From Vreelandella neptunia (GTDB taxonomy: Bacteria; Pseudomonadota; Gammaproteobacteria; Pseudomonadales; Halomonadaceae): a stretch of DNA of 64,000 nt. Below, one piece after another: positions 15,420-41,562 of the stretch (within the stretch, counting starts at the first letter, position 1; each line of letters starts with the position of its first letter). Below the pieces are notes generated by a model. It did no database searches. It was not told the DNA's origin and saw only the letters and a program-made list of their open reading frames with translations. Where the stretch lies: NCBI RefSeq assembly GCF_034479615.1, contig NZ_CP140255.1:4278001-4342000 (forward strand), written 5' to 3'. A program made the position numbers and the translations under genes.

Positions 15420-15443
15420 GTAATAACTGGCTGTTAACGTCTT

Positions 15444-15468
15444 CCCCCGGTGCCATAGATATCGGGGG
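15444..15468 (+). other. Intercistronic hairpin after the binding-protein gene
   Basis: CCCCCG (15444-15449) pairs with CGGGGG (15463-15468) around a 13-base loop and is followed by only TT. Hairpins of this sort between binding-protein and permease genes usually protect the upstream message and lower downstream expression, giving an excess of binding protein. Confidence 0.55.
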
Positions 15469-15498
15469 TTCGTTCTGTGACCAAGGAAATAGTCGATC

Positions 15499-16206: not shown

Positions 16207-16207
16207 T

Positions 16208-16933: not shown

Positions 16934-16947
16934 ACAGGAAACACTCC

Positions 16948-18417: not shown

Positions 18418-18489
18418 TTAATGGCGCTCACAACGTTGTGACGAACACTCAAGAGTTATGGGCTTTCGGTTTACCGGGACTTCGCGATT

Positions 18490-19458
18490 ATGAGACTCCA
18501 GCCCTCTGATACCCTCCCCGAACGCATTGGATTTCTTCTCCTACCGCGCTTCGCCATGGTGGCCTTCTTCTCTGCTATTGAGCCGCTACGTATTGCCAAT
18601 CGTATCGATGGGCGCCCTCTCTTTAGGTGGGATGTGATTAGCCGCGATGGCGAGCCGGTGGTGGCCTCCAACGGCATGACACTCATTGCCAGCGGCTCCC
18701 TTCACACAGCCCCTCAAGTTCCTAGCCTGGCCGTTTGTGCAAGCTTTGACCCAGAGAGTGCTATTGATGGCGAACTGATTGACTGGTTACGGGCGCGCGC
18801 TTACGAAGGTTGTGTGCTTGGCGGCATCGATACCGGCTGCTATGCGCTAGCCGCTGCGGGCCTTCTCGATGACAAAACGGTGACCCTGCATTGGGAGTGC
18901 CTAGCTGACTTCAGCACACGCTTTCCCCGAGTTGACGTCGTTGAGTCAATATACGAGGTTACCGACGAGGGGTTCTCCTGTGCCGGTGGCAGTGCAGCCA
19001 TCGATATGAGCCTTGACCTAATCCGGCGCCGACACGGTGATGCGCTCGCCAAACAGGTACGCGATCAGCTCATCCATGAGCAGGGGCGGCGTCCAGCCAG
19101 TCGACAGCGCAATCCAGCGATTCCCCAAGAACCCATGCTTCAACGGGCCATCACCTTAATGGATGACCACCTGGAGTCACCGCTAAGCATCCGTGCACTG
19201 GCTAATGAACTAGGCATTACCTGGCGACGTCTCGACCGGCTCTTCGCCCGCCATTTAGCGATATCGCCTCAAAAAACGTACTTGGCCCGGCGTTTAGACC
19301 ATGCCTACTGGCTGCTGAGTGAAACACCCCATAGCATTATGGACATCAGTCTGGCCTGTGGCTTTGCCTCGGCTTCAAGCTTCAGCCGTGCCTTTCGTCA
19401 CCATTACGGCTCCACCCCCAGCCAACTACGCCAGCAAGCAGTGTCGAATCGTGCATAG
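18490..19458 (+). CDS. Second GlxA family AraC-type transcriptional regulator
   Basis: The 322-residue protein has the same two-part build as the regulator at 6377-7420. The DJ-1/PfpI-like domain includes PRFAMVAFFSAIEPLRIANRI, VLGGIDTGCYALAAAGLL and TLHWECL. The C-terminal AraC helix-turn-helix pair includes LANELGITWRRLDRLFARHL and ACGFASASSFSRAFRHHYG. GlxA-type regulators of Pseudomonas (GbdR, CdhR, ArgR) sense or respond to betaine, carnitine or arginine catabolism. It stands between the aldehyde dehydrogenase and the second dioxygenase gene and may control the latter, since 80 bases separate them. Confidence 0.87.
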   Translation: MRLQPSDTLPERIGFLLLPRFAMVAFFSAIEPLRIANRIDGRPLFRWDVISRDGEPVVASNGMTLIASGSLHTAPQVPSLAVCASFDPESAIDGELIDWLRARAYEGCVLGGIDTGCYALAAAGLLDDKTVTLHWECLADFSTRFPRVDVVESIYEVTDEGFSCAGGSAAIDMSLDLIRRRHGDALAKQVRDQLIHEQGRRPASRQRNPAIPQEPMLQRAITLMDDHLESPLSIRALANELGITWRRLDRLFARHLAISPQKTYLARRLDHAYWLLSETPHSIMDISLACGFASASSFSRAFRHHYGSTPSQLRQQAVSNRA

Positions 19459-19537
19459 TTAGTGTCGAATCCTGCCGCGAATCACATGCTCCTGACAGGC
19501 ATTCTATGCGCTATAGCCAATCGCCTAGGAGGCCAAC

Positions 19538-20770
19538 ATGTCCCAAGCACTTCCTCTAACACCTGATTACAATGTTTGGCCCATTGAGGCTAGCCTCAAA
19601 AAGGTATCCTTCAAGCCACGCGTACTAACAGTATGCTGGAGTGACGGACGCGAGAGTCGCTACCATAGCATCTGGTTGCGTGAGAACGCCGCTGACGAGA
19701 CGACCGTCAATCCGGCGACTCGTGAGCGTATTCTCGATCTTTCCACCTTACCCAGCTGGCCTGAAATTGCCGCAGCTGACATCGATGAAGCTGGCGCATT
19801 GTGCATAGATTTTGCGCCTGAAGGACGGCGCTTGCGCTTCCACCCCGGCTGGCTTCGAGCTCACGACTACGACAATACTGGCGATCCCGCAGCACCGCTC
19901 GTGTCGGTAAAGACATGGAAGAGAAACTCAGCAGACGGCCCAGACAGCCTGGACGCCACAGGGCTCCTCGACACCGAAGCGGGCAGTGAGGCAGAAGAGG
20001 CCATTCTCGCTCCTGCTCTTTCAAGTATTTTGGGCAAGGGTCTAATACGCCTTTGCAACTTGCCCATCAAGCCCGACTCGCTCAAAGCGATAGCCCAGCG
20101 CATCGGCCCAGTAAGACCCACTAATTTCGGTATGCTATTTGACGTCAAAGCCAAACCTAACCCTGACTCTAACGCTTACACGTCTATCGCTCTGCCCCCC
20201 CATGTCGACTTGCCGACCAGGGAGTATCAGCCGGGAATGCAGATGCTGCACTGCCTAGAAAACAGCGTAGAAGGCGGCGAGGCGGTAATGCTTGATGGTT
20301 TTGCCGTGGCCGAGGCTCTGCGTGAGCATCATTCAGAGGCCTTTACCACCCTGACCCGAGTGCGTTGGTGCTTTGCTAATACCGCCAAGAACACCGACTA
20401 CGTTTGGTACTCGCCGATCATTCGCATTGATGAGCGCGGAGAGCTGTGTGAAGTTCGCATTGCTGACTTCCTGCGTGGACCGTTGCAAACCGACTTCGAG
20501 GAGGTAGAACCTGCCTACGAAGCGCTAATGGTTTTACAGAAAGTGCTGCAAGATCCCCAATTCGCCATCCGCTTCACCTACCAACCAGGCGACCTAGTAA
20601 TATTTGATAACCGGCGGCTGCTCCATGCTCGCGATGCCTTTGAGGGCACAAGCGGTCATCGCTGGTTACAGGGCTGTTATATGGAGCGTGACGAGATCCG
20701 CTCCCGCTATCGTATGATTAAGCGTGCCTGCCAACAGCGCAAAGCGACCGGCGAGGCATCATTAGCTTGA
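19538..20770 (+). CDS. Second gamma-butyrobetaine-hydroxylase-like dioxygenase
   Basis: The 410-residue protein has the DUF971-like N-terminal domain (YHSIWLRENAADETTVNPATRER) and a TauD/TfdA domain with the iron triad H-x-D in LPPHVDLPTREYQPG and the distal His in RRLLHARDAF. It is larger than the dioxygenase at 7523 and differs from it clearly, so it is a second activity and not a recent copy. Gamma-butyrobetaine hydroxylase itself (about 385-410 residues) is the closest described function by length and layout. A good AGGAGG site precedes the ATG. Substrate unproven. Confidence 0.85.
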   Translation: MSQALPLTPDYNVWPIEASLKKVSFKPRVLTVCWSDGRESRYHSIWLRENAADETTVNPATRERILDLSTLPSWPEIAAADIDEAGALCIDFAPEGRRLRFHPGWLRAHDYDNTGDPAAPLVSVKTWKRNSADGPDSLDATGLLDTEAGSEAEEAILAPALSSILGKGLIRLCNLPIKPDSLKAIAQRIGPVRPTNFGMLFDVKAKPNPDSNAYTSIALPPHVDLPTREYQPGMQMLHCLENSVEGGEAVMLDGFAVAEALREHHSEAFTTLTRVRWCFANTAKNTDYVWYSPIIRIDERGELCEVRIADFLRGPLQTDFEEVEPAYEALMVLQKVLQDPQFAIRFTYQPGDLVIFDNRRLLHARDAFEGTSGHRWLQGCYMERDEIRSRYRMIKRACQQRKATGEASLA

Positions 20771-21839: not shown

Positions 21840-23201
21840 TTAACCTATCAGTGAAGCCAGCACTTTCTGCTTGGACATTCGCTCGCGTTCAGCATAGAGC
21901 GATAGCTCATCCGTTACTTGAGCACCCAACGCTTCTTCAAAGGCATCGCGATTGGCATTTCCAGCATAGGCTTCGCTCTCTGCACCGCCCAGGTTTGACT
22001 GGAAAATACCCGCCGCGCTGACCGGCAGGAAGTCTTCATAGGTAATCGGCTGTGCTTCTACCAAGCCCTGGGCGATTAACGCCTCAATATCGGCACTATC
22101 AACACCTTTAGCGGCCTGACCCTTCTCGGTCAGATGATAGTGAAAATACGCTAACGACTCACGGCGCATGGCTTCATCGTTATCAGGGAACTTGGCAAAA
22201 ACGTTATTCATAACCGTCTGGTGGGCGTCGTTATCCAACCCTGCGGTTTGCTTGCGACCCTCAGTAAGCAACTGATCATAAAGCGCACGACCTTTCGGTG
22301 TTAGCGCCACTCCACGCTGCTCAATTTCACCAAAGCGAGCCGTGTGAGTACCTTGCGCGTCACCAGCAAAGTGAATTGACTCTTCTAACGCTTTAAAGCT
22401 GGTTTGGCGCAGCAAAATGGGGCATTCACGACGCGGCGGCCCTTCAATGACGGCTTTGGGGTTCATGCCCATCTCCGGCATGCGGCGCTGTACTACGTCG
22501 ATATCCAGGGTGCGTGGCGTCAGGTGATTAATATGCGGCCCACGGAAGCACACTACATCAGCAATCAAACGGTGCTCATCATGTAGGGCCTGATAAGTCT
22601 CCAGATCGACCGTCGCATCCTGGTGCCAACGGAAAGTTTCCAGAGCTTCTTTAACGAACTGGTCAGCCTCTTCGCTGGATAGTCCCCCCTGGGTTTCGTG
22701 ACGCTCAATAAGTTCGCGCGCCCTTGGGGTAAAGATATCGCGCTTGGCTAGAATTTCTTCTGAACGCTGACGTAGCGCCTCGCTTTCAATAAGCTCTAAA
22801 CGCAATAGCGAGGTAAAAACGCGGAAAGGGTTCATCGCCAACGCATCATCGTCGATTGGCCGGAAGGCGGTTGAGTGGACCGGCACGCCTGCTTCAGAAA
22901 GGTCGTAATAACCGACCGGATACATGCCCATAACGGCAAACAGGCGGCACAGCATGGAAAGCTCTGTAGCGGTTCCCACGCGAATGGCTCCGTGGCGCTC
23001 TACGCTCAAACGCGCCAACTCACCCTGTGCCTCCAAGCGGCGATGAAGTTCGGGCTGCTGACTAAGCGTTTCTTGATTAACGCGCTCGACAAGTTCAAGC
23101 AGCGTGCCGTACTGCGGCACTTCGGCTTGATACATAGCCGACATCGCCTTAGAGAAACGGTCGCGAACATCATTGGTTGAAAGAAGGTTCGGTTGAGTCA
23201 T
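21840..23201 (-). CDS. hglS: HglS/YdcJ-type 2-oxoadipate dioxygenase/decarboxylase
   Basis: The 453-residue DUF1338 (VOC-like metalloenzyme) protein matches the layout of Pseudomonas putida HglS and E. coli YdcJ (about 450-465 residues). Recognisable stretches are HGAIRVGTATELSMLCRLFA, MGMYPVGYYDLS, FRPIDDDALAMNPFRVFTS, VCFRGPHINHLTPRTLD and GPPRRECPILLRQTSFKAL. HglS converts 2-oxoadipate, made from lysine through 2-aminoadipate, to D-2-hydroxyglutarate with O2. The neighbouring gene encodes the YdiJ-type dehydrogenase that would oxidise that product, and the start overlaps its stop by 4 bases. The assignment is therefore strong. Confidence 0.88.
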   Translation of the reverse strand: MTQPNLLSTNDVRDRFSKAMSAMYQAEVPQYGTLLELVERVNQETLSQQPELHRRLEAQGELARLSVERHGAIRVGTATELSMLCRLFAVMGMYPVGYYDLSEAGVPVHSTAFRPIDDDALAMNPFRVFTSLLRLELIESEALRQRSEEILAKRDIFTPRARELIERHETQGGLSSEEADQFVKEALETFRWHQDATVDLETYQALHDEHRLIADVVCFRGPHINHLTPRTLDIDVVQRRMPEMGMNPKAVIEGPPRRECPILLRQTSFKALEESIHFAGDAQGTHTARFGEIEQRGVALTPKGRALYDQLLTEGRKQTAGLDNDAHQTVMNNVFAKFPDNDEAMRRESLAYFHYHLTEKGQAAKGVDSADIEALIAQGLVEAQPITYEDFLPVSAAGIFQSNLGGAESEAYAGNANRDAFEEALGAQVTDELSLYAERERMSKQKVLASLIG

Positions 23202-26200
23202 TTCGTTGCTCTCTCTTGCATATGGTTGGGATAAGGATGAGATACCGACGTCAATTGCGCCAATAGCGCCTGAAGCGGGTGCGGCAAAGTTTGCCCAGAA
23301 TAGCGTTTTACCTGGCTGCGACAGGAGTAGCCTGTCGCGAGAAGCTTGCCCGCGTTTTCATCGGCTTCCACTTGGGGCTGCCAGGATTGGGCGTAGATGG
23401 TTTGGGAGGTCTCGACATTACGGGTTTCATGCCCGTAGGTGCCGGACATACCGCAGCAGCCGGTTGCCATTAACTCAAGCTCTAAGCCAAACGCCGCAAA
23501 TAGCTGCTGCCAGACCCGGGGGCTGCCCGGTGCGTTGGTTTTTTCGGTGCAATGGGACAGCAGCTTAAAGCCAGGATTGGTTAGGTTCAGTTGGCTAGGC
23601 GCTAGCGTATTAATACGGGTGGCCAGCCACTCTTGCAGCATCAACACATTGGGCACTTGCTCGGCCCCCAGGGCTTTGACGTACTCCTGGCGGTAGGTCA
23701 GCGTCATGGCAGGGTCGATACCCACCATGGGTACTTCGAACTCTGACAGTGCCCGCAGGCGCTTAGCCTGTTTTTCCGCCGTACGCTCAAAGGCGCCTAA
23801 AAAGCCCTGTACTTGCAGCGGTTTGCCGTTGGCAGAAAACGGCATCACAAACACCCTCAGATTCAACCGCGACAGCAGTTCTACCACGTCCATCACCAGC
23901 TTGGCTTCAAAGTGGCTGGTGAACGCGTCCTGGACAATAATCACGCTGTTGGCGCGCTGTTGTTCGGTAAGCAGTGCCAGCGAGGTGGGGGTGGCTTCTG
24001 CAACGTCCCAAGCCCTTAGCTGTTTTTTCACGCTGGCGCGGGAAAGCTTCGGGGAGTCGCTCATTCCCAGCCCTTTACTCATCAGGCTATCTACCCAGCG
24101 CTGATTGAGTAGGGCGTTATACAGCGGCGCGACTTTGGCAAGGGTTGGCAACATAAATTCGGTGCCACCGATGATGTAATCGCGCAGCGGGCGTAAATAG
24201 CGGCCATGGTAGACCTCTAAAAACTGCGAACGGAACTGCGGCACGTTGACCTTAATCGGGCACTGGCCCGCACAGGATTTACACGCCAAACAACCCACCA
24301 TGACATCGTAAACTTCGTGAGAATAGTCGTGGTGTTGCTTGCGGCTGAGCGTATTGGCAACGCGCAGCGGAAAACTTTTAATAAAGCCCCAACCGTTTTC
24401 GGCTTTCTTTTTGCGCGACTCCTCCACCACATCGATACCTGCCTGGGACTGCAGGCGCAGCCACTCACGCATCAAGCTGGCCCGGCCTTTGGGCGAATGA
24501 CGTCGATCGCGGGTGGCCTTCCAGGAAGGGCACATCGGGTCATCAAGGTCGTAGTTGTAACAGGCACCATTGCCATTGCAGTAGACCGCCGCGTCGTAGG
24601 CCTGCCAAGCCCGTTCATCAATGGTGCGGTCCAACTGGCCGCGCATGGTGACGCCATCAACCGTTAATAGCTCAGGGTCACTGTCTTTGGCGATTAGTTC
24701 ATGGTTTTCGGATCTACCCACGGCTTCGGGCAGGTTAGACAACGGCGACGCGATTTTGCCGGGATTTAGCTGGTTATGCGGATCAAACGCGGCTTTGACG
24801 CGCTTCAGGCTGGGATAGAGTTCACCAAAGAATTTAGGGCCGTACTCCGAACGCACGCCTTTGCCGTGTTCCCCCCATAATAGCCCGCCGTACTTCTGGG
24901 TCAGGGCCGCTACTTCATCAGAAATCTCACGAATCAGTTTTTCCTGTTCGGGATCTTTGATATCTAGCGCTGGACGCACGTGCAGCACCCCTGCATCCAC
25001 ATGGCCAAACATCCCGTAGGAGAGCTTTCGGGCATCCAGCGCGGCGCGAAACTCAGTAATAAAGTCAGCCAAGTGCTCCGGTGGTACGGCGGTATCTTCC
25101 ACAAAGGCAATCGGCCGCTTTTCGCCCTGCACATTGCCTAGCAAACCCACCGAGCGTTTGCGCATGGCGTAAACTTTTTGGATCTGCGGGCGACCCTGCG
25201 CCAGGGTGTAGCCTAAACGCTCGACGGTCACATCAAGGCCAAGGTGCTCGGTAAAGGAGCGAACCCGGTTGGCCAAGCGCTCAGAATCATTGTCGCTAAA
25301 TTCGATCAGGTTAATGCCGCGAATCGGCGTACTACCGGTGGAGGGGAAAAACGCTGCCACGCTATCCCAAACAAAGTCATCCATGGCCAGCTGCAGCACG
25401 GTGTCGTCAATGGTTTCAATCGAGGTCGGGCGAGCGCTGGCGGCCATGAGAGCTTTGGCATCGCGCAGCGCGTCCATAAAGCTGGCATAGCGCACATTGA
25501 CCAAGGTGGCGTACTTGGGAATCGGCAGCACATTGAGTACCGCTTCATTCAAAAAGCCTAACGTGCCTTCCGAGCCGCACAGCAGGCTGTTCAGGTTCAA
25601 CTGGCCTTGCGCTTCCCGCAGGTGCACCAGATCATAGCCAGTTAAACAGCGGTTGAGCGGTGGAAATTTCGCCTCAATCAGCCCGCGCTGCTGGTCGATA
25701 ATCTCAGCGGCGATGGAGTGTACACGGCCAAGAATGCCGGATTGGGCAACGGCCTGCTGCTCCTCGTCAGCGCTAAGCGGGCGGCTATGCAGATGCTGGC
25801 CCCCCAGTAGAACCGTATCCAGTTCCAGCACGTGGTCACGGGTTTTACCGTACTCGCAGCTGCCCTGGCCGCTGGCATCAGTGGAGATCATCCCGCCGAT
25901 AGTGGCGCGGTTAGAGGTGGATAACTCAGGGGCGAAAAACAGCCCATGAGGCTTCAGCGCCGCGTTGAGTTGATCCTTCACCACGCCCGCCTGAACGCGC
26001 ACTCGCCGTGCCTCTACATCAATCGCTAGGATCTGGTTCATGTGGCGGGAAACATCCACCACGATACCGTCGGTCAGCGACTGGCCGTTAGTCCCCGTGC
26101 CACCGCCCCGAGGCGTTAGCACGATATCGCGGTGTGGCAGCTCTGCAGCCAATTTAGCTAGGCGCTCAAGATCTTCTGCGTGCTTAGGAAACACAGCCGC

Positions 26201-26356
26201 CTGGGGCAGGCGTTGGTAAATCGAGTTATCCGTCGCCAGCACCGTGCGATTGGCGTAGTCAGGGGCAATCTCACCTTCAAAGCCGCGAGCGCGCAAGGCG
26301 TCGAGAAACGTCACATACCCACGCCGAACTGCCACCTCGCTGACCAATGCGATCAT
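23198..26356 (-). CDS. ydiJ: YdiJ-type D-2-hydroxyglutarate dehydrogenase (FAD and Fe-S)
   Basis: The 1052-residue protein has an N-terminal FAD-binding domain (about 50-230: GGGTGTNGQSLTDGIVVDVSRH, TIGGMISTDASGQGS), an FAD-oxidase C-terminal-like region, and a ferredoxin-like part with CLACKSCAGQCP near 695. C-terminal cysteine-rich segments end with GCCGMSGTYGHE. Length and order fit YdiJ (about 1018 residues in E. coli), which oxidises D-2-hydroxyglutarate to 2-oxoglutarate and passes electrons to a carrier. It lies between the aminotransferase and HglS genes with ATGA overlaps on both sides, so the three products should be made together. Confidence 0.9.
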   Translation of the reverse strand: MIALVSEVAVRRGYVTFLDALRARGFEGEIAPDYANRTVLATDNSIYQRLPQAAVFPKHAEDLERLAKLAAELPHRDIVLTPRGGGTGTNGQSLTDGIVVDVSRHMNQILAIDVEARRVRVQAGVVKDQLNAALKPHGLFFAPELSTSNRATIGGMISTDASGQGSCEYGKTRDHVLELDTVLLGGQHLHSRPLSADEEQQAVAQSGILGRVHSIAAEIIDQQRGLIEAKFPPLNRCLTGYDLVHLREAQGQLNLNSLLCGSEGTLGFLNEAVLNVLPIPKYATLVNVRYASFMDALRDAKALMAASARPTSIETIDDTVLQLAMDDFVWDSVAAFFPSTGSTPIRGINLIEFSDNDSERLANRVRSFTEHLGLDVTVERLGYTLAQGRPQIQKVYAMRKRSVGLLGNVQGEKRPIAFVEDTAVPPEHLADFITEFRAALDARKLSYGMFGHVDAGVLHVRPALDIKDPEQEKLIREISDEVAALTQKYGGLLWGEHGKGVRSEYGPKFFGELYPSLKRVKAAFDPHNQLNPGKIASPLSNLPEAVGRSENHELIAKDSDPELLTVDGVTMRGQLDRTIDERAWQAYDAAVYCNGNGACYNYDLDDPMCPSWKATRDRRHSPKGRASLMREWLRLQSQAGIDVVEESRKKKAENGWGFIKSFPLRVANTLSRKQHHDYSHEVYDVMVGCLACKSCAGQCPIKVNVPQFRSQFLEVYHGRYLRPLRDYIIGGTEFMLPTLAKVAPLYNALLNQRWVDSLMSKGLGMSDSPKLSRASVKKQLRAWDVAEATPTSLALLTEQQRANSVIIVQDAFTSHFEAKLVMDVVELLSRLNLRVFVMPFSANGKPLQVQGFLGAFERTAEKQAKRLRALSEFEVPMVGIDPAMTLTYRQEYVKALGAEQVPNVLMLQEWLATRINTLAPSQLNLTNPGFKLLSHCTEKTNAPGSPRVWQQLFAAFGLELELMATGCCGMSGTYGHETRNVETSQTIYAQSWQPQVEADENAGKLLATGYSCRSQVKRYSGQTLPHPLQALLAQLTSVSHPYPNHMQERATK

Positions 26357-27633
26357 GCCTTAAGCGTCTCCAGCGCCTGCTCGATGAGCCCTAACCCTTC
26401 TTCCATGACGTCTGGTTCAGTGGTCAACGGCGGCAATAAGCGTAAGACGTTACGTTTGCGGCCACTGGGCATTAATAAGACACCGGCATCACGACCGGCT
26501 ACTAACAGATTGGCTAAGTGCTCCGCACCCGTGGCGTTTTCGGTGTCTTCAAAGACGATGCCGCGCATAGCGCCAATACCTGTCATAGCGCCTACCATCG
26601 GGAAACGCTCACTTGCCTTCCAGCGCCGATAAGCATTTACAATCGCCGCTTCTTGGACATTACCCCATTCACTTAGCGCCTCATCTTGCATGATATCCAT
26701 TACTGCTAATGCAGCTGCACACGCAACCGCATTACCTGAATAGGTACCTCCTAGCGCGCCTTTGGGTAAGGCATCCATTAACTCTTTACGCCCTACCAAG
26801 GCGGCAAGAGGGAGACCCGAGGCAATACTTTTTCCTAACAGAAGTAGGTCGGGCTCAATACCGAGGTGACTAAAACCAAAGCGTTTACCGGTTCTTCCGA
26901 AGCCCGATTGAATTTCGTCACAAATCAATAAAATGCCGTGCTGATCGCAGATTGCCCGCAGCGCTTTGGCAAACTGGGGGCAAAGTAAGCGAAAACCGCC
27001 TTCCCCTTGAATGGGTTCAACGACGACACAGGCTACTTCACTGGGAGCAATCTCTACGTCAAATACACGCTCTAGGGCGGCCAGCGACTGCTCAGAGGAT
27101 ATCCCACTGTCCTGGCTAGGAAACGGCACGTGATAAACCGGGCCAGGCAGCGCGCCTAAACCAGCTTTATAGGGCTTAACTTTGCCGTTCAAATTGAGTG
27201 CTGCCAGCGTGCGGCCATGAAAAGCATCGTCAAAGGCAATCACTCCTTGACGCCCCGTAACACCACGGGCCACTTTCAGGGAATTTTCGGTCGCTTCCGC
27301 TCCACTGTTTGTCAGCATGCATCCCAGCGGATAAGGCAATGGCACAAACTGGTCAAGACGCTCGACAACTGAGAGGTAGGCACGGTGAGGCACGGCATTA
27401 AACGCTGAATGCATGAGGGTATCGACTTGGGCTTTGACGGCCTCGACCACCACTGGATGGCAATGCCCCAAGTTAAGCACACCAATACCGCCAATAAAGT
27501 CGATATAGCGTTGCCCCGCCTCATCCCATACCTCTGCATTACGCCCTTTAGTGATACAGACGGGATGGAGGATGCCTAATGCACTGCTGACGTTGGGAAG
27601 GTCCATCGTCGGAAACGCTCCTGAAATAGCCAT
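26353..27633 (-). CDS. Class III aminotransferase, probably 2-aminoadipate:2-oxoglutarate
   Basis: The ATG at 27633 has AAGGAAA six bases upstream and is preferred to the one five codons earlier. The 426-residue fold-type I protein has the GabT pattern: LTNSGAEATENSLKVARG, FDDAFHGRTLAALNL, CDEIQSGFGRTGK and the PLP Lys near 266 in LLLGKSIASGLPLAALVG. By sequence alone it could be a 4-aminobutyrate aminotransferase. Its place as first gene of an operon with YdiJ and HglS points to 2-aminoadipate, as for the class III enzyme used in P. putida lysine catabolism. The operon would turn 2-aminoadipate into 2-oxoglutarate. Confidence 0.85.
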   Translation of the reverse strand: MAISGAFPTMDLPNVSSALGILHPVCITKGRNAEVWDEAGQRYIDFIGGIGVLNLGHCHPVVVEAVKAQVDTLMHSAFNAVPHRAYLSVVERLDQFVPLPYPLGCMLTNSGAEATENSLKVARGVTGRQGVIAFDDAFHGRTLAALNLNGKVKPYKAGLGALPGPVYHVPFPSQDSGISSEQSLAALERVFDVEIAPSEVACVVVEPIQGEGGFRLLCPQFAKALRAICDQHGILLICDEIQSGFGRTGKRFGFSHLGIEPDLLLLGKSIASGLPLAALVGRKELMDALPKGALGGTYSGNAVACAAALAVMDIMQDEALSEWGNVQEAAIVNAYRRWKASERFPMVGAMTGIGAMRGIVFEDTENATGAEHLANLLVAGRDAGVLLMPSGRKRNVLRLLPPLTTEPDVMEEGLGLIEQALETLKA

Positions 27634-28057
27634 GTGTTTCCTTATCAAACAGGTTCATATGGCAGATCACAAACGAAAAAAAATGCTAAATACATGCCAA
27701 GCAGGAATGCACTGAGTGTGAACACTTGATCAGAAGCAGAATCAGCAGCCGCACAGCATAGCCCAACCATTACTAGCGCATATTCCAATAGGCCAGCTAT
27801 AAAAAGAAAACGCTATGCCGGGGATGCAGATAAAAAGCATAAACCATCTCTTACATAAGGGATTTCTTAATAGCCTATGGCATGACAAAATGGAATACGT
27901 ACGCAACTTAATTTCTTTTGCCTGTCGAGCTGCATACGTGAACAATAGCCAGCTATCTTTTTCGCGACCTTTTTCACTGATCGATCCCCAGACAGTCGGA
28001 TTGCGAAAATTGCTAAGCAAAATTTTATTATAAATAATTTAATTAGCAGGAGTTAAT
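27634..28057. other. Divergent intergenic region
   Basis: These 424 AT-rich bases lie between the 2-aminoadipate operon (minus) and the TAXI-TRAP genes (plus), so both promoters should be here. Short open frames exist on both strands but show no family resemblance, and I do not call them. An AGGAG ribosome site appears at 28048-28052 for the binding-protein gene. Confidence 0.4.
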
Positions 28058-29053
28058 ATGAAAAATATCCCCTCAAAAGTGCTGTGCAGCGTAGGCGCTA
28101 CTCTTCTGTTGGCGGGCTGTGGTGGCGAGAGCAAACCTAATATCGCTATTGGCCCTCCTGCCAGCACCACTCAAAGCGTTTCTCAACTACTTTTTGATGC
28201 CTATGGTATTGGTAGCGACAAGTACAATACCTATCAAGAGGGGTTTGGTGCTGCACTCGATGGCGTACAAGATGGCAACATTGATATTTCTATCGGCATT
28301 CTTGGTTTGCCTTCTGGCAGCATCGAGAACTTACAAGCCTCGAGTGGCGATGCACGTCTGATCAGCTTAAGCGATGATGCTATTGACTATATTGAAGAGA
28401 ATAGTGCCTATCAGCGCTTTACAATTCCTGCTAATAGTTATGCCTTTCAAAATGAAGATGTAAATACTATTACGGCTTATGCCATTTTAGTAGGCAACAC
28501 GAATACGATTGATGAAGACCTAGGTTATGAACTAGCGCGCTTAATGCATGAGCATGCTGAAGAAAACACACATTCTCAATCTGCGTTTATCACCCTTGAA
28601 AATGCACTGAATGGCTCAGAAGGTCTGCCCATTCATCCCGGTGCTAAAAAATATTACGAAGAACAAGGCCTCACCGTAGATAACCCGGTCGCTGAGCTTG
28701 GCGAAACTAAAGCCAAAGAAGAATTTATTCTAGGCACCGGTAGCCAAGGTGGCACTTACTACCCTCTGGGCGGTGAGATGGCCACTATTTGGAACCGCTA
28801 CCTGGAAAACCAAAACTTCACCAATATTGAAACAGGCGCCTCAATCGAGAACTTAGTGAGTATCCGTGATAACAATATGGATCTTGGGATGACTGTGCAC
28901 GCACCTGCGCAAGATGCCATTGCGGGGAGAGGTGAGTTCGAAAGCGGTACTATTGATAATGTCGCCTTTATCGGACACATCTATCCTGAAGTCATTCAGA
29001 TTATCACCCGTGAACGCTCCAACATTGACAGTCTAAGTGATCTAACCGATTGA
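28058..29053 (+). CDS. TAXI-type TRAP binding lipoprotein with circularly permuted domain order
   Basis: The 331-residue protein has a lipoprotein signal (LLLAGCGG, lipobox Cys near 21). What follows directly is the second half of a usual TAXI protein: NIAIGPPASTTQSVSQLL, then GLPSGSIENLQ, YQRFTIPANSY, and ending PIHPGAKKYYEEQGL. After a short linker comes what is normally the mature N-terminus: EEFILGTGSQGGTYYPLGGEMATIW, then DLGMTVHAPAQDAI and a stop just after SNIDSLSDLTD. In ordinary members SLxDL-GK joins straight to VAIGPP, so the break falls exactly at that joint. Both halves are complete, so the protein may fold as a circular permutant. It should bind a carboxylate substrate for the fused permease next to it. 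Confidence 0.85.
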   Translation: MKNIPSKVLCSVGATLLLAGCGGESKPNIAIGPPASTTQSVSQLLFDAYGIGSDKYNTYQEGFGAALDGVQDGNIDISIGILGLPSGSIENLQASSGDARLISLSDDAIDYIEENSAYQRFTIPANSYAFQNEDVNTITAYAILVGNTNTIDEDLGYELARLMHEHAEENTHSQSAFITLENALNGSEGLPIHPGAKKYYEEQGLTVDNPVAELGETKAKEEFILGTGSQGGTYYPLGGEMATIWNRYLENQNFTNIETGASIENLVSIRDNNMDLGMTVHAPAQDAIAGRGEFESGTIDNVAFIGHIYPEVIQIITRERSNIDSLSDLTD

Positions 29054-29064
29054 TGTTCCCTTTT

Positions 29065-29087
29065 CGCCGCTGGCTAAGCCAGCGGCG
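29065..29087. other. Intercistronic 10-bp hairpin
   Basis: CGCCGCTGGC pairs perfectly with GCCAGCGGCG around TAA. There is no T-tract on either side. It lies between the binding-protein and permease genes, where it would stabilise the upstream message or reduce read-through. Confidence 0.65.
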
Positions 29088-29218
29088 TTATATGTATGAG
29101 GTTTAATCGTGGATAAAAAAAAACTCCTGACGAAGCGGCGCTTTTAGAAAAGTATGATCGTGAGTCACAAGTACGTTCGGCACTACAGCTAGGCAAGTGG
29201 GGATGGCTGATCACCTTA

Positions 29219-31066
29219 ATGGGTGTATCACTGACATGCTTTCATCTCTACACCGCATATTTTGGTACGCTACCTTCACAGCAGCAAGGCGCTGTCCACT
29301 TGGGCATTGCTTTGGGGATGATCTTTATCCTATTCCCTGCAACCCGCGGCGCAGGCCGTCGCAATGAAGTGCCGTGGTACGATGTACTACTCGCCTTCGC
29401 AGCAACTTTTGCCGCCTATTATAAAATCCTATTTTATGAAGAAGTACTACGTGCAAGGGTCACGGGCTATTCAGCCTTTGATCTAACGATTGCGGCACTC
29501 GGCGTGCTGTTTGTACTCGAAGCGACTCGCCGTACCGTTGGTATGCCAATCGTTGTCATGGCCACACTGGCAATTCTATATGCGCTGTTTGGCAATCTAA
29601 TCCCAAGCCCTTTGCTTTCCCATCCTGGCTTCTCTCTTGAGCAGGTGTCTCCATACTTATGGTTCAGGGAAAGCGGCGTTTTCGGTACGCCTCTACAAAT
29701 ATCGGCGCGCTTTATCTTCTTGTTTTTATTTTTCGGCGTTGTCCTGATGCATACCGGAGTAGGTCGATTCTTTAATGACTTAGCCTTTGCATTAACCGGG
29801 CGATTTACCGGTGGTGCCGGCAAAGCCGCTGTCATAGCAAGTTCGCTGCAGGGCATGATTTCGGGGAGCTCTATCGGCAACACTGTAGCCTCTGGCTCTT
29901 TCACTATACCCATGATGAAAAATGCACGCTTTAAGCCCGAGGTAGCGGGAGCAGTCGAAGCGTCAGCCTCTACTGGTGGTCAGATTATGCCCCCTTTGAT
30001 GGGCGCGGCTGCCTTTATCATGGTGGAGTATGTAGGTGTTTCTTATCGCGAAATCATGTTCTCAGCGCTGATTCCCGCCATTCTCTATTTTGCTAGCATT
30101 TTTATCGGCGTGCATTTCGAAGCTAAACGTCATCGCATTCTAGGCCTGCCTAAAGATCAGCTGCCCAGCAAACGTAAGCTCATGCTGTCAAAAGGCTACA
30201 TGCTGCTGCCTTTGCTCGTCATTATTACGACCATTAGCGTTGGCTTTACCGCTCAACGAGCAGCGCTACTGGGGATAGCATGTGCTTTTGCCGTCAGTTT
30301 GGCGCGTAAAGAAACACGTCCCTCATTAAAAGATATATTGGTGATTTTTGAAAAAGGAGCGCGCGTGGCACTACCAGTGATCGCTGCAGTCGCTTGCGCG
30401 GGTATTATTGCCGGCGTGGTAGGCATGACAGGAATGGGGTCAAAATTTGCCGCCGGCATTATTAGTTTGGCTGATGGCGTTTTGATACTTGCGCTGTTAT
30501 TCACGATGATCGCCTGTATTGTTCTAGGCATGGGATTACCCACAACGGCAAACTATGTGGTCACCGCTACGATTGCCGCACCGGCGCTTATTAATGAGTT
30601 TGGCCTCCCGCCAATGGCGGTGCATTTGTTTGTCTTTTATTTCGGCATTATTGCCGATATTACGCCCCCCGTTTGTTTGGCCGCGTTCGCTGGCGCCGGC
30701 ATTGCGCGAGCCAACCCAATGAAGACGGGCTTTACGGCGGTTAAATTGGCCATTGGTGCGTTCATTATTCCTTACGCCTTCATTTATAACCCCATGCTGG
30801 TATTGGTTGAACCTACGCCGCTAGGGCTTTTAAGCGCATTGTTCTTTTCACTTGTAGGGATCATGGGCGTTAGCAGCGCGCTACTAGGTTACTTTATACG
30901 CGATTCCTTCTTCTTGGAGCGTCTGGTACTGTTAGTTGCAGGGCTTGCCATGGTGGTTCCTGAGTTGCTAACCAGCGGCTTAGGCCTACTTGCCATGGTG
31001 ACGGTAGGCTGGCTTCAATCGCGCCGCCCTGACAAATATCAGGAAGCCGCGTCGCTCGCCCAATGA
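29219..31066 (+). CDS. TRAP transporter fused DctQM-type permease (TAXI system), start region frame-disrupted
   Basis: The protein has many membrane helices and the DctM pattern of TAXI systems: SSLQGMISGSSIGNTVASGSFTIPMM, EASASTGGQIMPPLMGAAAFIM and LGMGLPTTANYVVTATIAAPAL. The coding signal extends upstream of this ATG in the same frame to about 29124 (TPDEAALLEKYDRESQVRSAL and on), but no start codon exists there. A GTG with a GAGG site lies at 29109 and is out of frame by an A9 run (29115-29123). A one-base gain or two-base loss in the run would join them. The natural product is therefore probably about 650 residues, made by slippage, or the run is miscounted. The stop overlaps the LysR start. 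Confidence 0.85.
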   Translation: MGVSLTCFHLYTAYFGTLPSQQQGAVHLGIALGMIFILFPATRGAGRRNEVPWYDVLLAFAATFAAYYKILFYEEVLRARVTGYSAFDLTIAALGVLFVLEATRRTVGMPIVVMATLAILYALFGNLIPSPLLSHPGFSLEQVSPYLWFRESGVFGTPLQISARFIFLFLFFGVVLMHTGVGRFFNDLAFALTGRFTGGAGKAAVIASSLQGMISGSSIGNTVASGSFTIPMMKNARFKPEVAGAVEASASTGGQIMPPLMGAAAFIMVEYVGVSYREIMFSALIPAILYFASIFIGVHFEAKRHRILGLPKDQLPSKRKLMLSKGYMLLPLLVIITTISVGFTAQRAALLGIACAFAVSLARKETRPSLKDILVIFEKGARVALPVIAAVACAGIIAGVVGMTGMGSKFAAGIISLADGVLILALLFTMIACIVLGMGLPTTANYVVTATIAAPALINEFGLPPMAVHLFVFYFGIIADITPPVCLAAFAGAGIARANPMKTGFTAVKLAIGAFIIPYAFIYNPMLVLVEPTPLGLLSALFFSLVGIMGVSSALLGYFIRDSFFLERLVLLVAGLAMVVPELLTSGLGLLAMVTVGWLQSRRPDKYQEAASLAQ

Positions 31067-32028
31067 GCCATTATAAAAGCCTAGCTTCCCCCCGGTGTTT
31101 AGTCACCGGGGCGGCTTTCAGGTCATCAGGAGCGCCTGGTTTGGCATCACGCAATCTTCCTTCTACGGCGGCTATGCAGTGCTTTGAAGCGGCCGCACGC
31201 CATATGAGTTTCACTCGGGCCGCAGACGAGCTAAACCTCACGCAAAGTGCTGTCAGCAAACAAGTCGCGCAGCTCGAAACCACCTTGCAACACAAGCTAT
31301 TTCGTCGCGTGCGACGCAGCCTACTGCTAACCCCTGAAGGTGCCATTTTTTTAAGTGACGTACGTAAAGTGCTCACTCAAATTGAGATGTCGACACAAGC
31401 GATAATGACCTACAGCGGTAATAGCGAGGTTCTTAAAATCGCGACGTTACCGAGCTTCGGTAGCCGTTGGTTGGCAAATAAATTGCCAGCGTTTCTAGCG
31501 GACAATCCAGGCATTAGCTTGGAGTTTCATGACCGAGTGAAAGATTTCGATCTTGAACAACAAGATATCGATATTGCTCTGTTTTATGGGCATGGCAGTT
31601 GGCCAAGCCTTGCTTGTCATAAGCTTATTGATGAGGACATGGTCGCGGTTGCTTCTCCAGAATTACTGGCTCAGCACCCCATCCATTCAGTGGATGACTT
31701 AACACAACTACCGCTGCTTCACCTCTCGACACGCCCTGACGCGTGGCACCATTGGTTTGCAAACCAAGAGATCATCACTGACCGTAGCTATCATGGCACT
31801 CGCTTCGAGACTTTTCCTATGCTGGTACGAACGGCAATGGCAGGCGGCGGGGTTGCACTGGTACCTCACTTTACCGTCGATGAAGAGTTGGAAGGCGGCC
31901 GACTGACCGTCGCTTGGCCATATCGGTTGCTCAGTGAGAGTGCTTATTATCTTGTTTACCCTGAACACTTAGGGGAACTCGCCAAAGTACGACGCTTTGT
32001 AGAGCATGTTACCCAGCTTAGTGATTGA
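31063..32028 (+). CDS. LysR family transcriptional regulator (GcvA-like)
   Basis: The N-terminal winged helix-turn-helix is clear (AMQCFEAAARHMSFTRAADELNLTQSAVSKQVAQLE, LFRRVRRSLLLTPEG). A periplasmic-binding-like effector domain follows (KIATLPSFGSRWLANKLPAFL and on) with GcvA-type features. The annotated ATG at 31063 gives about 35 extra residues before the usual start of the fold; it overlaps the permease stop (ATGA), so it may be real through coupling. It probably regulates the TRAP genes, the divergent 2-aminoadipate operon, or both. Confidence 0.87.
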   Translation: MSHYKSLASPRCLVTGAAFRSSGAPGLASRNLPSTAAMQCFEAAARHMSFTRAADELNLTQSAVSKQVAQLETTLQHKLFRRVRRSLLLTPEGAIFLSDVRKVLTQIEMSTQAIMTYSGNSEVLKIATLPSFGSRWLANKLPAFLADNPGISLEFHDRVKDFDLEQQDIDIALFYGHGSWPSLACHKLIDEDMVAVASPELLAQHPIHSVDDLTQLPLLHLSTRPDAWHHWFANQEIITDRSYHGTRFETFPMLVRTAMAGGGVALVPHFTVDEELEGGRLTVAWPYRLLSESAYYLVYPEHLGELAKVRRFVEHVTQLSD

Positions 32029-34143: not shown

Positions 34144-35245
34144 CCTGGATTCATAGAATAACCGCAGCACTTTGGATCACACAGTAGAGGAAGGAGGGAC
34201 AGCGCCGGTACCCTCTCGACTTTACCGACCAAAGTGAAGCAGAGCATGGGATACCGACAACTGACCCAGGCCCAACGATACCAAATTTTTGCTTATCTTG
34301 AGACTGGCATCAGCCAGCGACAAATAGCCAAGGCTATCGGGGTTCACAGCAGTACCATTAGCCGGGAGATAAAGCGCAATGGGCTTAAGACTGGCTATGC
34401 GACTGAACAGGCGCAATCGAGAAGTGATCAGCGCCGACGCACCGCCTGGAAAGTGACGAAGCGCCTGCCAAGCCTGATTTGATGGGTCACTGATCAACTG
34501 ATGGACGAATGGAGCCCCCAGCAAATTAGTGGCTTCATGGCGAATGCCAACGGCGTTTGCGTCAGCCATCAGTGGATCTATGCGCTAATCTGGGACGACA
34601 AGAAACGCGGCGGCGAATTATGGAGGCGACTCCGGCTACCACGCCAGCGGCGCTATCAGCGCCGATTGGCCAAGCATGCGGGATTGGGCAAAATTCCACA
34701 CCGGGTAGGCATTGAATAGCGTCCCGCTGAAGCGGAAGAAAGGCGCCATATCGGCCATTGGGAGGGCGATACGGTGCTCAAAGGCCACAAAGAATCTGGC
34801 TTGGTGACCCTGGCCGAGAGACGCAGCGGTTACCTCTTGGCAGCGCGCCTGTCGAGGATCACGGCCACTGGAACGGCTAAAGCGATGACCCGTTTATTAA
34901 AACCACGCCGAGGCGCAGTGCAGACCATCACCTTGGATAACGGGTCGGAATTCGCCGAGCACCGACAGGTTGCCAAGGCTGTCTCGGCCAAGACCTATTT
35001 TTGCGACCCGTACCGCTCATGCCAGCGTGGCACTAATGAAAACACCAACGGCCTGATTCGCCAATATTTCCCGAAAGGGACGGACTTCCGAAAGGTGAGC
35101 GACTCAGAACTGAGGAGAGTCGTTGCCAAGTTGAACAACCGCCCCAGAAAACGTTTGGGGTATCGGACACCGGCACAAGTGTTCCTGGGAGAGTATTCAG
35201 GGGCGCTAAAAACCGCAGGTGCTGCACTTATTAGTTGAATTCAGG
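34144..35245 (+). mobile_element. IS30 family insertion sequence, decayed
   Basis: Imperfect terminal inverted repeats of about 26 bases (left CCTGGATTCATAGAATAAC, right ending TTATTAGTTGAATTCAGG) enclose 1.1 kb with a transposase frame broken by two stops. A second copy of the left end stands at 32198. Confidence 0.8.
34234..35238 (+). pseudogene. IS30-type transposase with two in-frame stops
   Basis: One frame runs through the whole gene but is cut by TGA at 34480-34482 and TAG at 34717-34719. The first part has the IS30 helix-turn-helix (RQIAKAIGVHSSTISREIKRNG). The last part has the DDE core: GHWEGDTVL, TLDNGSEFAEH and the RGTNENTNGLIRQYFPKGTDF motif with its Glu. Everything else looks intact, so inactivation is recent. 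Confidence 0.85.
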
Positions 35246-35499
35246 AAGAAAAGACCAGTTATCAAGCTAATTAGTATAAAGAAGGTTACGAGAACTACTG
35301 AGCTGATTCAGTGGATTTATCGCTAGTACGGTCACGCTCAAATGATCAAAACGCAACAACTGTAGAGAAGTGCAACGACAGGTCTACTGTGAAATCTTCA
35401 GAGTAAGCAGAGCTAGCGAATAAAACCGCTTAACACCGTTTGGGATTGCCTTTTGTGGTTACTAGTGTGGTTATAGCAACCTTCACCACAAAACAAAAA
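35246..35499. other. Gene-free stretch before the terminator
   Basis: No coding frame of any quality is visible. The region is AT-rich and leads to the hairpin at 35500. Confidence 0.3.
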
Positions 35500-35528
35500 G
35501 GCTTACGCGTTAACGGTAAGCCCTTTTT
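35490..35528 (-). terminator. Terminator of the former tRNA-Arg gene
   Basis: GGCTTAC (35500-35506) pairs with GTAAGCC (35516-35522). On the minus strand TTTTTGTTTT follows, and on the plus strand a T5 run does. It lies 12 bases beyond the CCA end of the tRNA-Arg fragment on the same strand, exactly where a tRNA terminator is expected. Confidence 0.75.
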
Positions 35529-35533
35529 AAATT

Positions 35534-35580
35534 TGGCGCGCCCGGCAGGATTTGAACCTGCGACCCTCGGCTTCGGAGGC
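35534..35580 (-). other. 3' 47 bases of a tRNA-Arg(CCG) gene, attachment-site scar (copy C)
   Basis: On the minus strand the sequence contains an anticodon loop CTCCGAA (anticodon CCG), 3' anticodon stem GCCGA, variable loop, a perfect T-arm (GCAGG TTCAAAT CCTGC), acceptor strand CGGGCGC, discriminator G and encoded CCA. The match to a tRNA stops abruptly at the 5' anticodon stem, and no D-arm follows. Such 3' fragments mark the far end of islands integrated into a tRNA gene. With this orientation the island would extend to the right and the old chromosome with the tRNA terminator lies to the left. Confidence 0.8.
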
Positions 35581-35995
35581 TAATTTCAAGCCTTGTGAAT
35601 TAGCTTACCTATCGAACCTTCCCATCGATAAATGCCTATTTAATTCAATAAAAACAGCTATTTATTAAATATATAAGTGTTTGTAGTGCTTCCCGCTTTA
35701 TCCCGTTTTACACCGACCGTTGCCCATCGCCACCATAATAAGGGTCACATGGCGTGATTTTAAAATGTCTGTTTTTTGGACAATTTTGACCTTTGGCGGT
35801 AGTGCCTTACCTGTGTTTAATAACACATCTTTATGATGACTTTGGAAAAGCGTCTCCTCTCCCCGCACGATTCGTCGACAGCGATACTATTACTGCATCA
35901 AACCGCTCTTTACTTAAAACAGCTTATTTTCTCAGCGCATTACGACGGTGAACGCTGACCGGGCTTTTTGTTGCTGATTGATGACGCTCTAACGC
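35581..35995. other. Gene-free stretch between tRNA scar and IS1380
   Basis: I see no gene. The segment is the first part of the presumed island beyond the attachment scar and is low in coding signal on both strands. Confidence 0.3.
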
Positions 35996-37577
35996 CTAGC
36001 CTGGATATTGCATAAGACATGAAAAAGGCGGCTGAAAATCGGTTATAATTCAAGCTCCTACACAAGAACCAACCGCCTCAGCCGCCATGACAAAATGTAC
36101 CACGCCGTCCGCTTCCTTTCCACGCTGCAAAGGCCGTCAGGTCATCGCCCGTTTCGATGGCGGTGATCTCACTTCCGACGGCGGTATCCTGCTGCTGCGG
36201 CAGCTCGATCGCGAGATGGGCCTGACCCGCGCCGTCGCTCGCCGGCTCAGCGACGAGCGCGACGCTCAGCGCTGCCTGCATCGCACCGAAACCCTGGTCC
36301 GGCAGCGCGTGTTCGGCCTGGCGCTGGGCTATGAGGATCTCAATGACCACCAGGCCCTGCGTCACGATATCGCCCTGCAGACCGCCGTCGATACCGATGG
36401 CGTGCTGGCCAGTCAGTCCACCTTGTGCCGCTTCGAGCAGCAAGCCGACCGGGACTGGGCGATCACCATCCACGAAGAGATGATCGAGCAGTTCATCCGC
36501 TCGTTCCGGCGGCCACCCAAGAAACCGCTCTACCTCGACTTCGATGCCACCGACGATCGGGTGCATGGCCAGCAGCTCGGGCGGCACTTCAACGGCTACT
36601 ACAACCACTACATCTTCCTGCCGCTGTTCGTATTCTGTGGCGACCAGCTGCTGGTCAGCTATCTGCGTCCGGCCTCGCTGGATGCCGCTCACCACGCCGG
36701 TGCCATCCTCGCCCTGTTGGTCCGGCGGCTGCGCCAGGCGTGGCCTGAGGTGAAGATCGTCTTCCGAGGCGACAGCGGCTTCTGCCGTCCACTGATCCTC
36801 AACTGGTGTGACCGCCACGGCGTCGATTACATCATCGGCCTCGCCGGCAACAAGCGCTTGGCCAAGCTGGCTCTGAACATCGACTACGCGTCGGCCATCC
36901 GCTTCGAGAAGACCTGGGAGAAGGAGCGTGTCTTCGGCTTCATCGAGTACGCTGCCAAGAGCTGGAAGGAGCGTCGACGAAAGGTCATCGTCAAGTCCGA
37001 GACCAGCCGGCGTGGCTTCAACACCCGCTATGTGGTCACCAGCCTGCGCGGCTGCAGCGCCGAGTGGCTCTATGACCACCGCTACTGTGCTCGGGGCGAG
37101 ATGGAGAACCGTATCAAGGAGCAGCAGTTCCTGTTCTCCGACCGCACCAGCTGCCACGAATGGTGGCCCAACCAGTACCGACTGCTGCTGTCGGGGTTGG
37201 CCTACCTGCTGCTGGAGCGGCTGCGCCGGGTCTACCTCAAGCGCACCGCCTTCGCCCAGGCCCAGGTCAACACCCTCCGCCTGAAGCTGCTGAAGATCGG
37301 CGCTGTCATCACCCGCAACACGCGCACGATTCGGCTGATGTTGAGCAGCCAGTACCCGGAGCAGGACCTCTTCCTGAAGCTGGCCAGCAAGCTGGTGCCG
37401 GGATAGCGCCGCGGCGTGCTGTCCCCGGCACAGAAAACACATGGGGGTAGGGGGAAATGCGCCTTGAGCTCAGGAAATTGATCAATATATAGCCAACTTC
37501 CAGCTCTGGGCGGCATCATCGCCACCAAACCTGGCATTTGGGTGCTGCTGACCAACCCGATGCAACATCCGGGCTAG
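35996..37577 (+). mobile_element. IS1380 family insertion sequence
   Basis: Inverted ends reading CTAGCCTGGATATTGCAT (left) and, as complement, CTAGCCCGGATGTTGCAT (right) bound about 1.58 kb with an intact transposase. Composition is much more GC-rich than the flanks, so arrival was recent or from a different host. Confidence 0.8.
36087..37406 (+). CDS. IS1380 family transposase
   Basis: The 439-residue DDE transposase has the family pattern: FDGGDLTSDGGILLLRQLDRE at the start, LYLDFDATDDRVHGQQ (first Asp), VFRGDSGFCRPLIL (second Asp) and MENRIKEQQFLFSDRTSC (Glu). Length is normal and there is no internal stop, so it could be active. A long frame on the opposite strand is a shadow of its GC-rich codon use. 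Confidence 0.93.
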   Translation: MTKCTTPSASFPRCKGRQVIARFDGGDLTSDGGILLLRQLDREMGLTRAVARRLSDERDAQRCLHRTETLVRQRVFGLALGYEDLNDHQALRHDIALQTAVDTDGVLASQSTLCRFEQQADRDWAITIHEEMIEQFIRSFRRPPKKPLYLDFDATDDRVHGQQLGRHFNGYYNHYIFLPLFVFCGDQLLVSYLRPASLDAAHHAGAILALLVRRLRQAWPEVKIVFRGDSGFCRPLILNWCDRHGVDYIIGLAGNKRLAKLALNIDYASAIRFEKTWEKERVFGFIEYAAKSWKERRRKVIVKSETSRRGFNTRYVVTSLRGCSAEWLYDHRYCARGEMENRIKEQQFLFSDRTSCHEWWPNQYRLLLSGLAYLLLERLRRVYLKRTAFAQAQVNTLRLKLLKIGAVITRNTRTIRLMLSSQYPEQDLFLKLASKLVPG

Positions 37578-37583
37578 CCTTGA

Positions 37584-37796
37584 AAGCGCGTAGCCGCGGC
37601 GGATTTTGAGGCGCTATATCGCGTAACGACGGTGACAGGATTGCAAGCACTGCACGACCGACGGGCAACAAGTTTTAATACACGCATGGGTGCCGGGGAT
37701 ATGGCCCGTGATACCGCTTTACTTGAGAAGCGCCATAGGCCTTATTTATCACCACCACTACCTAACCGTGGTGCCATTACGGCCATCACATCGTGG
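37584..37796 (+). pseudogene. Unrecognised gene fragment cut by IS elements
   Basis: A frame reading DFEALYRVTTVTGLQALHDRR, then MARDTALLEKRHRPYLSPPLP and AITAITSW has normal coding composition. It is cut on the left by IS1380 and on the right by the IS3-type element. I cannot name the family. No convincing continuation was found beyond 38994. Confidence 0.3.
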
Positions 37797-37835
37797 GGTA
37801 ATCCCCCCATCTTCAGAGGGCTTCAAAAGTAGACT

Positions 37836-40345: not shown

Positions 40346-41562
<1,217 letters not shown>

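Follow-up and report, generated by a model that had tools for sequence, protein, structure and literature searches.

Permuted and atypical receptors among solute-binding proteins

Canonical TAXI solute-binding proteins (SBPs) of the TRAP class (TIGR02122/PF16868), including VcGluP (8S4J) and a Thermus protein (1US4), are two-lobed receptors that are commonly lipid-anchored, are encoded upstream of a fused QM permease and carry the residues Y45, S75 and E125 (VcGluP numbering). In VcGluP, hinge strands 116-131 and 255-267 join lobe 1, made up of residues 29-115 and 268-328, to lobe 2, which spans residues 132-254 (PMC11574862). The protein described here, cpTAXI, shares all of these general features and is homologous to canonical TAXI proteins over its full length, but its two halves are inverted, with the termini at the position of VcGluP residues 145-147. 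It also differs from VcGluP in that Q93 is replaced by V and that it is lobe 2 which is anchored, by a short tether.

Natural permuted binding proteins are already known from ABC systems (PMC4990184, PMC2395249). The glucose-binding lipoprotein TpMglB-2 (Tp0684) of Treponema pallidum, designated 'Type Ic', is likewise a natural, permuted, lipid-tethered SBP, and homologues have been reported in spirochaetes and Gram-positive bacteria (PMC4990184). However, TpMglB-2 serves an ABC transporter, has a type I fold, binds a sugar and is poorly conserved in sequence over its permuted part, whereas cpTAXI belongs to the TRAP class, has a type II-like fold, is clearly homologous to TAXI proteins in both halves and has an identified canonical sister. 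By sequence and by partner cpTAXI is a TAXI/TRAP protein and falls outside the 'Type Ic' group of type I, cluster B ABC receptors, with which it has the phenomenon of permutation alone in common. Glycine-betaine-binding proteins, among them OpuAC (PDB 2B4M/2B4L), have also been reported to be circular permutants of one another (PMC2395249). OpuAC differs from cpTAXI in its ABC transporter and betaine ligand, with only 11% identity between the two; cpTAXI lies outside the OpuAC-type family of ABC betaine receptors (PF04069) and resembles it in structural chain order alone, a likeness that is due to convergence or to common type II topology and not to close kinship.

TAXI proteins of unusual architecture have been described before. 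BP0403/TAXI-GltS, a predicted lipoprotein, and other TAXI-GltS fusions differ from cpTAXI in having extra domains and a GltS partner, and are described as containing a standard SBP domain, with no mention of permutation (PMC12344293). A search of open-access literature returned no description of a permuted TRAP receptor; on that evidence cpTAXI seems to be the first natural permutant known among receptors of the TRAP class. Its gene lies in a 64,000-nucleotide stretch of the Vreelandella neptunia genome (NZ_CP140255.1, positions 4,278,001 to 4,342,000), referred to below as the window; the features discussed are collected in Table 1.

Table 1. Features of the cpTAXI locus in window coordinates
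Feature	Coordinates	Strand	Basis or remark
HglS, 2-oxoadipate dioxygenase/decarboxylase (DUF1338)	21840..23201	-	NF049974, 752.7 bits (cut-off 550)
YdiJ, D-2-hydroxyglutarate dehydrogenase	23198..26356	-	NF049975, 1537.5 bits (cut-off 1350)
AmaD, 2-aminoadipate transaminase, divergent from cpTAXI	26353..27648	-	NF049976, 737 bits (cut-off 650)
cpTAXI, circularly permuted TAXI-type TRAP solute-binding lipoprotein, 331 aa	28058..29053	+	inverted profile order; 30/275 Halomonadaceae genomes
Lipoprotein signal peptide (residues 1-20) and lipobox cysteine C21 (28118-28120)	28058..28120	+	LLLAGC; lipobox in 46/46 permuted homologues checked
Short tether, C21 to first strand of lobe 2	28121..28141	+	7 residues in most homologues
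Canonical second half (PF16868 model 113-289), residues 28-205	28139..28672	+	profiles; 8S4J alignment; AlphaFold elements E8-10 to H174-182 (mature protein)
Linker between old C- and N-termini, TVDNPVAELGETKAKE	28673..28720	+	18-21 residues between fixed motifs in 60 homologues
Canonical first half (model 1-117), residues 222-331	28721..29050	+	profile; 8S4J alignment; AlphaFold elements E202-206 to H306-309
Intercistronic stem-loop CGCCGCTGGCTAAGCCAGCGGCG	29065..29087	+	predicted stem in 25/25 loci examined, sequence differing between lineages
Fused TRAP permease (QM)	29109..31066	+	TIGR02123, 700 bits (cut-off 320.65)
GcvA-like LysR regulator	31063..32028	+	profile match; neighbour in most Halomonadaceae loci

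A TAXI receptor with its halves exchanged

The open reading frame reads as quoted in the initial annotation, and its score places it in the TAXI family under both PF16868 (206.5 bits against a cut-off of 27), which is its sole Pfam match at 0.001, and TIGR02122 (216.7 bits; cut-off 84.35). The order of the matches is inverted. PF16868 aligns twice, with model positions 113-289 at 28139-28669 (121 bits) standing ahead of positions 1-117 at 28730-29074 (88 bits, a match that runs beyond the stop codon), and between them the two matches span the 289-position model a single time, 5 positions being shared. Residues 29-204 correspond to model positions 144-320 of TIGR02122, and alignment to the 8S4J chain places query residues 220-330 on chain positions 3-116 and residues 29-205 on positions 120-298. 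Since this order is not colinear with the family model, cpTAXI is classed as a permuted subclass by descent and not as a standard TAXI protein. The initial annotation had proposed that the halves are swapped, that each is complete and present once, and that the lipoprotein signal is retained, all of which these alignments and the lipobox common to the permuted homologues confirm. Six TAXI paralogues in the same genome have the canonical order (PF16868 profile search). Family profiles score permuted proteins as ordinary TAXI subunits and do not flag their order.

The canonical second half, now first, holds most of lobe 2, the return hinge strand and the C-terminal part of lobe 1; the canonical first half holds the N-terminal part of lobe 1, the hinge strand and a short lobe 2 helix. 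Lobe 1, which is split in canonical TAXI proteins, is thus made continuous by the linker, whose core N-P-V/I-A-E-L is common to both phyla in which permuted forms occur, and lobe 2 is split instead. Aligned to 8S4J, the permuted chain starts at about VcGluP residue 148 and ends at 144. The new termini therefore fall in a G-K-R turn ahead of the first strand of lobe 2, about 13 residues beyond the hinge strand at which the cut had originally been placed. The cut site in canonical Bacilli sisters reads SIADLKGKKVAIGPP, and the permuted forms end in ...SLDDLKK-stop and begin, after the signal peptide, C-GGGGK-NIAIGPP. The chain would accordingly run from the first strand of lobe 2 through that lobe and back into lobe 1, pass through the 19-residue linker into the rest of lobe 1, and end in the short helix that would formerly have stood before the first strand of lobe 2.

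Predicted fold

The AlphaFold model of cpTAXI, for which 73 sequences derived from the window and from homologous loci served as input, was confident (AF2; pLDDT 91.8, pTM 0.85), and so was that of the control, a canonical Bacilli sister (L193; pLDDT 91.2, pTM 0.85). The two models contain the same 21 helices and strands in rotated order. The point of rotation lies between H133-136 and E140-142 of L193, the first eight elements of which (E28-33 to H133-136) are the last eight of cpTAXI (E202-206 to H306-309), while its remaining 13 are the first 13 of cpTAXI. Two alpha/beta lobes with a hinge are thus present in the prediction, and cpTAXI is predicted to close into a two-lobed fold. In Foldseek comparisons with VcGluP 8S4J, L193 aligned over 299 columns (TM 0.88, rmsd 2.4) and cpTAXI over just 191 (TM 0.48), a contrast between models that is the signature expected of a permutant.

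The best full-length sequential structural match of the cpTAXI model was Bacillus subtilis OpuAC (Z 14.0 over 214 residues, model positions 4-311). This suggests that the permuted chain keeps to the chain order common among type II receptors, except that the lobes have traded places; the cut may be tolerated for this reason. A comparison of the two halves with hhalign detected no internal symmetry at sequence level, and to regard the new start as the pseudo-symmetric mate of the old is therefore an argument from topology.

Distribution and conservation

Relatives were found to carry the same permuted order. Full-length homologues, aligning over query residues 1-331 or nearly so in a single alignment, occur in 19 of 82 genomes of the genus and in 30 of 275 Halomonadaceae genomes belonging to five genera (the query genome included in each count), with identities of 73-97%, a common start and an identical end point. 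A scan of named genomes placed permuted forms in Vreelandella, Halomonas, Billgrantia, Bisbaumannia and Pseudomonas sp. Q2-TVG4-2 and, at 62-70% identity, in the Bacilli genera Oceanobacillus, Virgibacillus, Sporosarcina, Bhargavaea and Lentibacillus; about 30 are known from the Oceanobacillus family. The record named Pseudomonas has amaD and hglS near its permuted system and groups with Bisbaumannia, and represents either a recent transfer or a misnamed genome. One genome of Oceanobacillus damuensis contained two permuted TAXI-QM pairs (L095 and L099), and in Marinobacter sp. ELB17 a fragment (L108:4907-5145) whose match to the permuted protein is confined to residues 17-96, at 73%, is apparently a remnant.

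Scans for close relatives found no permuted form outside the query's own genus and family among 391 genomes sampled from the order, 321 from the class and 200 from the phylum. Among 199 Bacillota genomes drawn across that phylum, a scan of the same kind returned no permuted form apart from the query's own, and the plasmid collection contained no near match to cpTAXI. As such scans are sensitive to close relatives only, distant permutants of independent origin may exist elsewhere.

The possibility that the halves truly stand in standard order and were rearranged by an assembly or sequencing error, which the initial annotation had itself named as a refuting case and for which no supporting evidence was found, is practically negligible. 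The genome consists of a single closed contig, 29 further independent Halomonadaceae assemblies have their halves in this order, and a second phylum shows it too, with 61-97% protein identity over the two phyla and divergence at synonymous sites; the agreement of independent genomes refutes an artefact. A pseudogene was likewise considered and rejected, the reading frames being intact and dN/dS about 0.03-0.04. Between the window and near relatives dN/dS of the mature protein is 0.027-0.039, with a looser 0.25-0.47 in the linker. cpTAXI is a genuine and old circular permutation under strong purifying selection.

Origin and transfer

For the receptor tree, permuted sequences were first rotated to standard order. 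All permuted forms fell into one clade (ultrafast bootstrap 100, SH-aLRT 99) surrounded by canonical Bacilli TAXI proteins. Within it the Halomonadaceae forms make up one clade (100/100) nested inside the Bacilli permuted forms, which formed a single clade in none of 200 bootstrap trees. In the permease tree, too, permuted and canonical systems lie apart (SH-aLRT 99), although there the permuted permeases of Bacilli and Halomonadaceae are sisters, unlike the nested arrangement of the receptors. Compared half by half with the same canonical Bacilli clade (L193-L197), the N-half shows 60-63% identity and the C-half 55-56%. Taken together, the two trees and the half comparisons point to one permutation in Bacilli followed by transfer of receptor and permease to Halomonadaceae. 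The initial annotation had read the protein as permuted; beyond that reading, the permutation proves to be old, common to two phyla and of single origin.

Since both halves derive from the same canonical clade, the proposed tandem duplication, after which the outer halves would have been lost, is plausible and is the simplest route. A search for a tandem-duplicate intermediate found none; one suspected case (G1412) turned out to be a single canonical gene. The weak resolution of the trees of separate halves would also allow a chimaera of halves from two TAXI paralogues instead of a permutation of one gene, but both halves are closest to the same canonical Bacilli clade and the rotated concatenation groups cleanly, and this origin is very improbable. 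In the preferred history, a single canonical lipoprotein TAXI gene of Bacilli was permuted once, probably through a duplication whose outer halves were then lost, and cpTAXI later entered Halomonadaceae along with its cognate fused permease, at a site beside amaD-ydiJ-hglS. Some relatives without the transporter carry hglS with the same LysR gene (L228, L230), or amaD-ydiJ-hglS (L229), alone. Such loci are as expected if the transporter was inserted into a catabolic locus that was already there, or if those relatives have lost it.

The permease and its start site

A QM permease lies directly downstream of the permuted receptor in every locus examined, and cpTAXI is accordingly encoded in an operon with a fused QM membrane component, for which it probably works as a Venus-flytrap receptor. 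With high confidence cpTAXI can be regarded as a permutation of single origin that would work as a TRAP receptor.

The initial annotation had taken the permease to be a working one. The fused QM protein does pass TIGR02123, but it is not a plain open reading frame from 29219; it starts at a GTG at 29109 and includes an out-of-frame A9 tract. A Shine-Dalgarno sequence (GAGG, 29098-29101) precedes the start, which reads GTG-GAT-A9 (A9 at 29115-29123), and the main frame is then shifted by -1 and continues with the conserved permease stretch TPDEAALLEKYDRES..., ahead of which, back to the upstream TAA, there is no start codon (ATG, GTG or TTG). A run of exactly A9 stands out of frame in 27 of 30 Halomonadaceae-type loci; of the other three, one carries an in-frame A10 (VDKKKTPDEAS), and the remaining two show an in-frame ATG and no run. 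Runs of at least nine A or T are scarce, with just 25 in 391 kb of these loci, 21 of them at the permease-start site. The Bacilli permeases have in-frame upstream starts and no A run. From this pattern the tract is likely to be a conserved site of programmed transcriptional slippage or of -1 ribosomal frameshifting; a literature search returned no paper on slippage in TRAP genes. The stem-loop between the two genes perhaps sets the ratio of receptor to permease. Several transposase-like ORFs lie downstream of the transporter locus, at 34774-38618 and 40660-41562.

Anchor, tether and possible adaptive value

The tether between the cysteine and the first strand measures 6-14 residues in permuted forms (median 7, n=60), and 11-65 in canonical sisters (median 23.5, n=30), where it is acidic and rich in Ser and Gly. 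The permutation would thereby exchange a long-tethered lipid anchor on lobe 1 for a short-tethered one on lobe 2, a change which may alter docking. A parallel idea, that permutation is an adaptation to tethering, was suggested for the permuted lipoprotein TpMglB-2 by its authors (PMC4990184).

There is an even chance that the permutation is functionally neutral, with fold, docking and transport as in canonical TAXI proteins and the position of the anchor irrelevant. The binding-site columns are nearly identical to those of the near canonical sisters, and natural permutants usually keep their function (PMC2395249). However, the short tether is found in 60 of 60 permuted forms, no reversion was seen in the sampled clade, and permutation has arisen in parallel in other tethered receptors (PMC4990184). 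A less probable reading is adaptive: the lobe 2 anchor with its 6-14-residue tether would fix the orientation of the receptor on the permease, as tethered ABC receptors (TpMglB-2, perhaps OpuAC) would have come to do independently, and the output of the permease would be further set, in Halomonadaceae, by the conserved slippage tract at the start of its gene.

Genomic context and candidate ligand

Adjoining cpTAXI, the genes amaD, ydiJ and hglS encode the tail of lysine (2-aminoadipate) catabolism, in which HglS converts 2-oxoadipate to D-2-hydroxyglutarate, a chemistry that is established (PMC7286885). Linkage of amaD and hglS is kept in nearly all Halomonadaceae loci with long enough contigs; ydiJ is often missing. 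A TAXI-TRAP system of Proteus mirabilis has been reported to take up 2-oxoglutarate and 2-hydroxyglutarate (PMC12344293). The position of the Halomonadaceae locus beside amaD, hglS and usually ydiJ makes a C5-C6 2-substituted dicarboxylate a likely ligand, and we lean slightly towards 2-aminoadipate, 2-oxoadipate or 2-hydroxyglutarate, taken together. Lysine genes are absent beside the Bacilli permuted copies, so this proposal is drawn from the Halomonadaceae loci.

The VcGluP ligand contacts Y45, S75 and E125 are kept in the permuted forms. Q93, which in VcGluP is worth 990-fold for glutamate, is V in 29 of 29 Halomonadaceae-type sequences, 36 of 36 Bacilli permuted sequences and 13 of 13 near canonical sisters, and Q in the far ones. 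The set of contacts seen in glutamate-type (VcGluP-like) TAXI proteins is therefore incomplete in cpTAXI, with Y45 kept and V at position 93. As the replacement is already present in the near canonical sisters, the choice of ligand changed before the permutation, the ligand is probably not glutamate, and ligand choice is not linked to the permutation as such.

Somewhat less than an even chance can be given to a working permutant with another ligand (2-oxoglutarate, glutamate or an unrelated acid), for which the linkage of amaD and hglS would be a regulatory coincidence. The Bacilli copies stand beside genes for a chemoreceptor and a CynX/NimT-type MFS protein or beside nothing constant, and the catabolic genes, as noted above, occur in relatives without the transporter. 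However, three adjacent genes encode consecutive enzymes of one pathway and score above curated cut-offs, the linkage is maintained in nearly all Halomonadaceae loci, and each of the 65 permuted sequences compared has V in place of the residue critical for glutamate.

Two further gene neighbourhoods are recorded. At the Bacilli permuted loci L180, L181 and L183, the TAXI-QM pair follows a chemoreceptor-like gene and is followed by a gene for a CynX/NimT-type MFS transporter. In the window, a separate cluster on the + strand (14649-20770) encodes a lysine/arginine/ornithine-type ABC receptor, two permeases, an aldehyde dehydrogenase, a GbdR-like regulator and a gamma-butyrobetaine/trimethyllysine dioxygenase-like protein, and possibly serves the use of methylated lysine or betaine.

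Implications

The event that produced cpTAXI is unusually clean, in that the canonical sister, the single origin, the lineage of the cognate permease and the move from one phylum to another can all be seen. It therefore offers a testable natural experiment on the question of which lobe of the receptor has to be held by the anchor and by the permease. In addition, cpTAXI provides ready-made new termini for sensor design.
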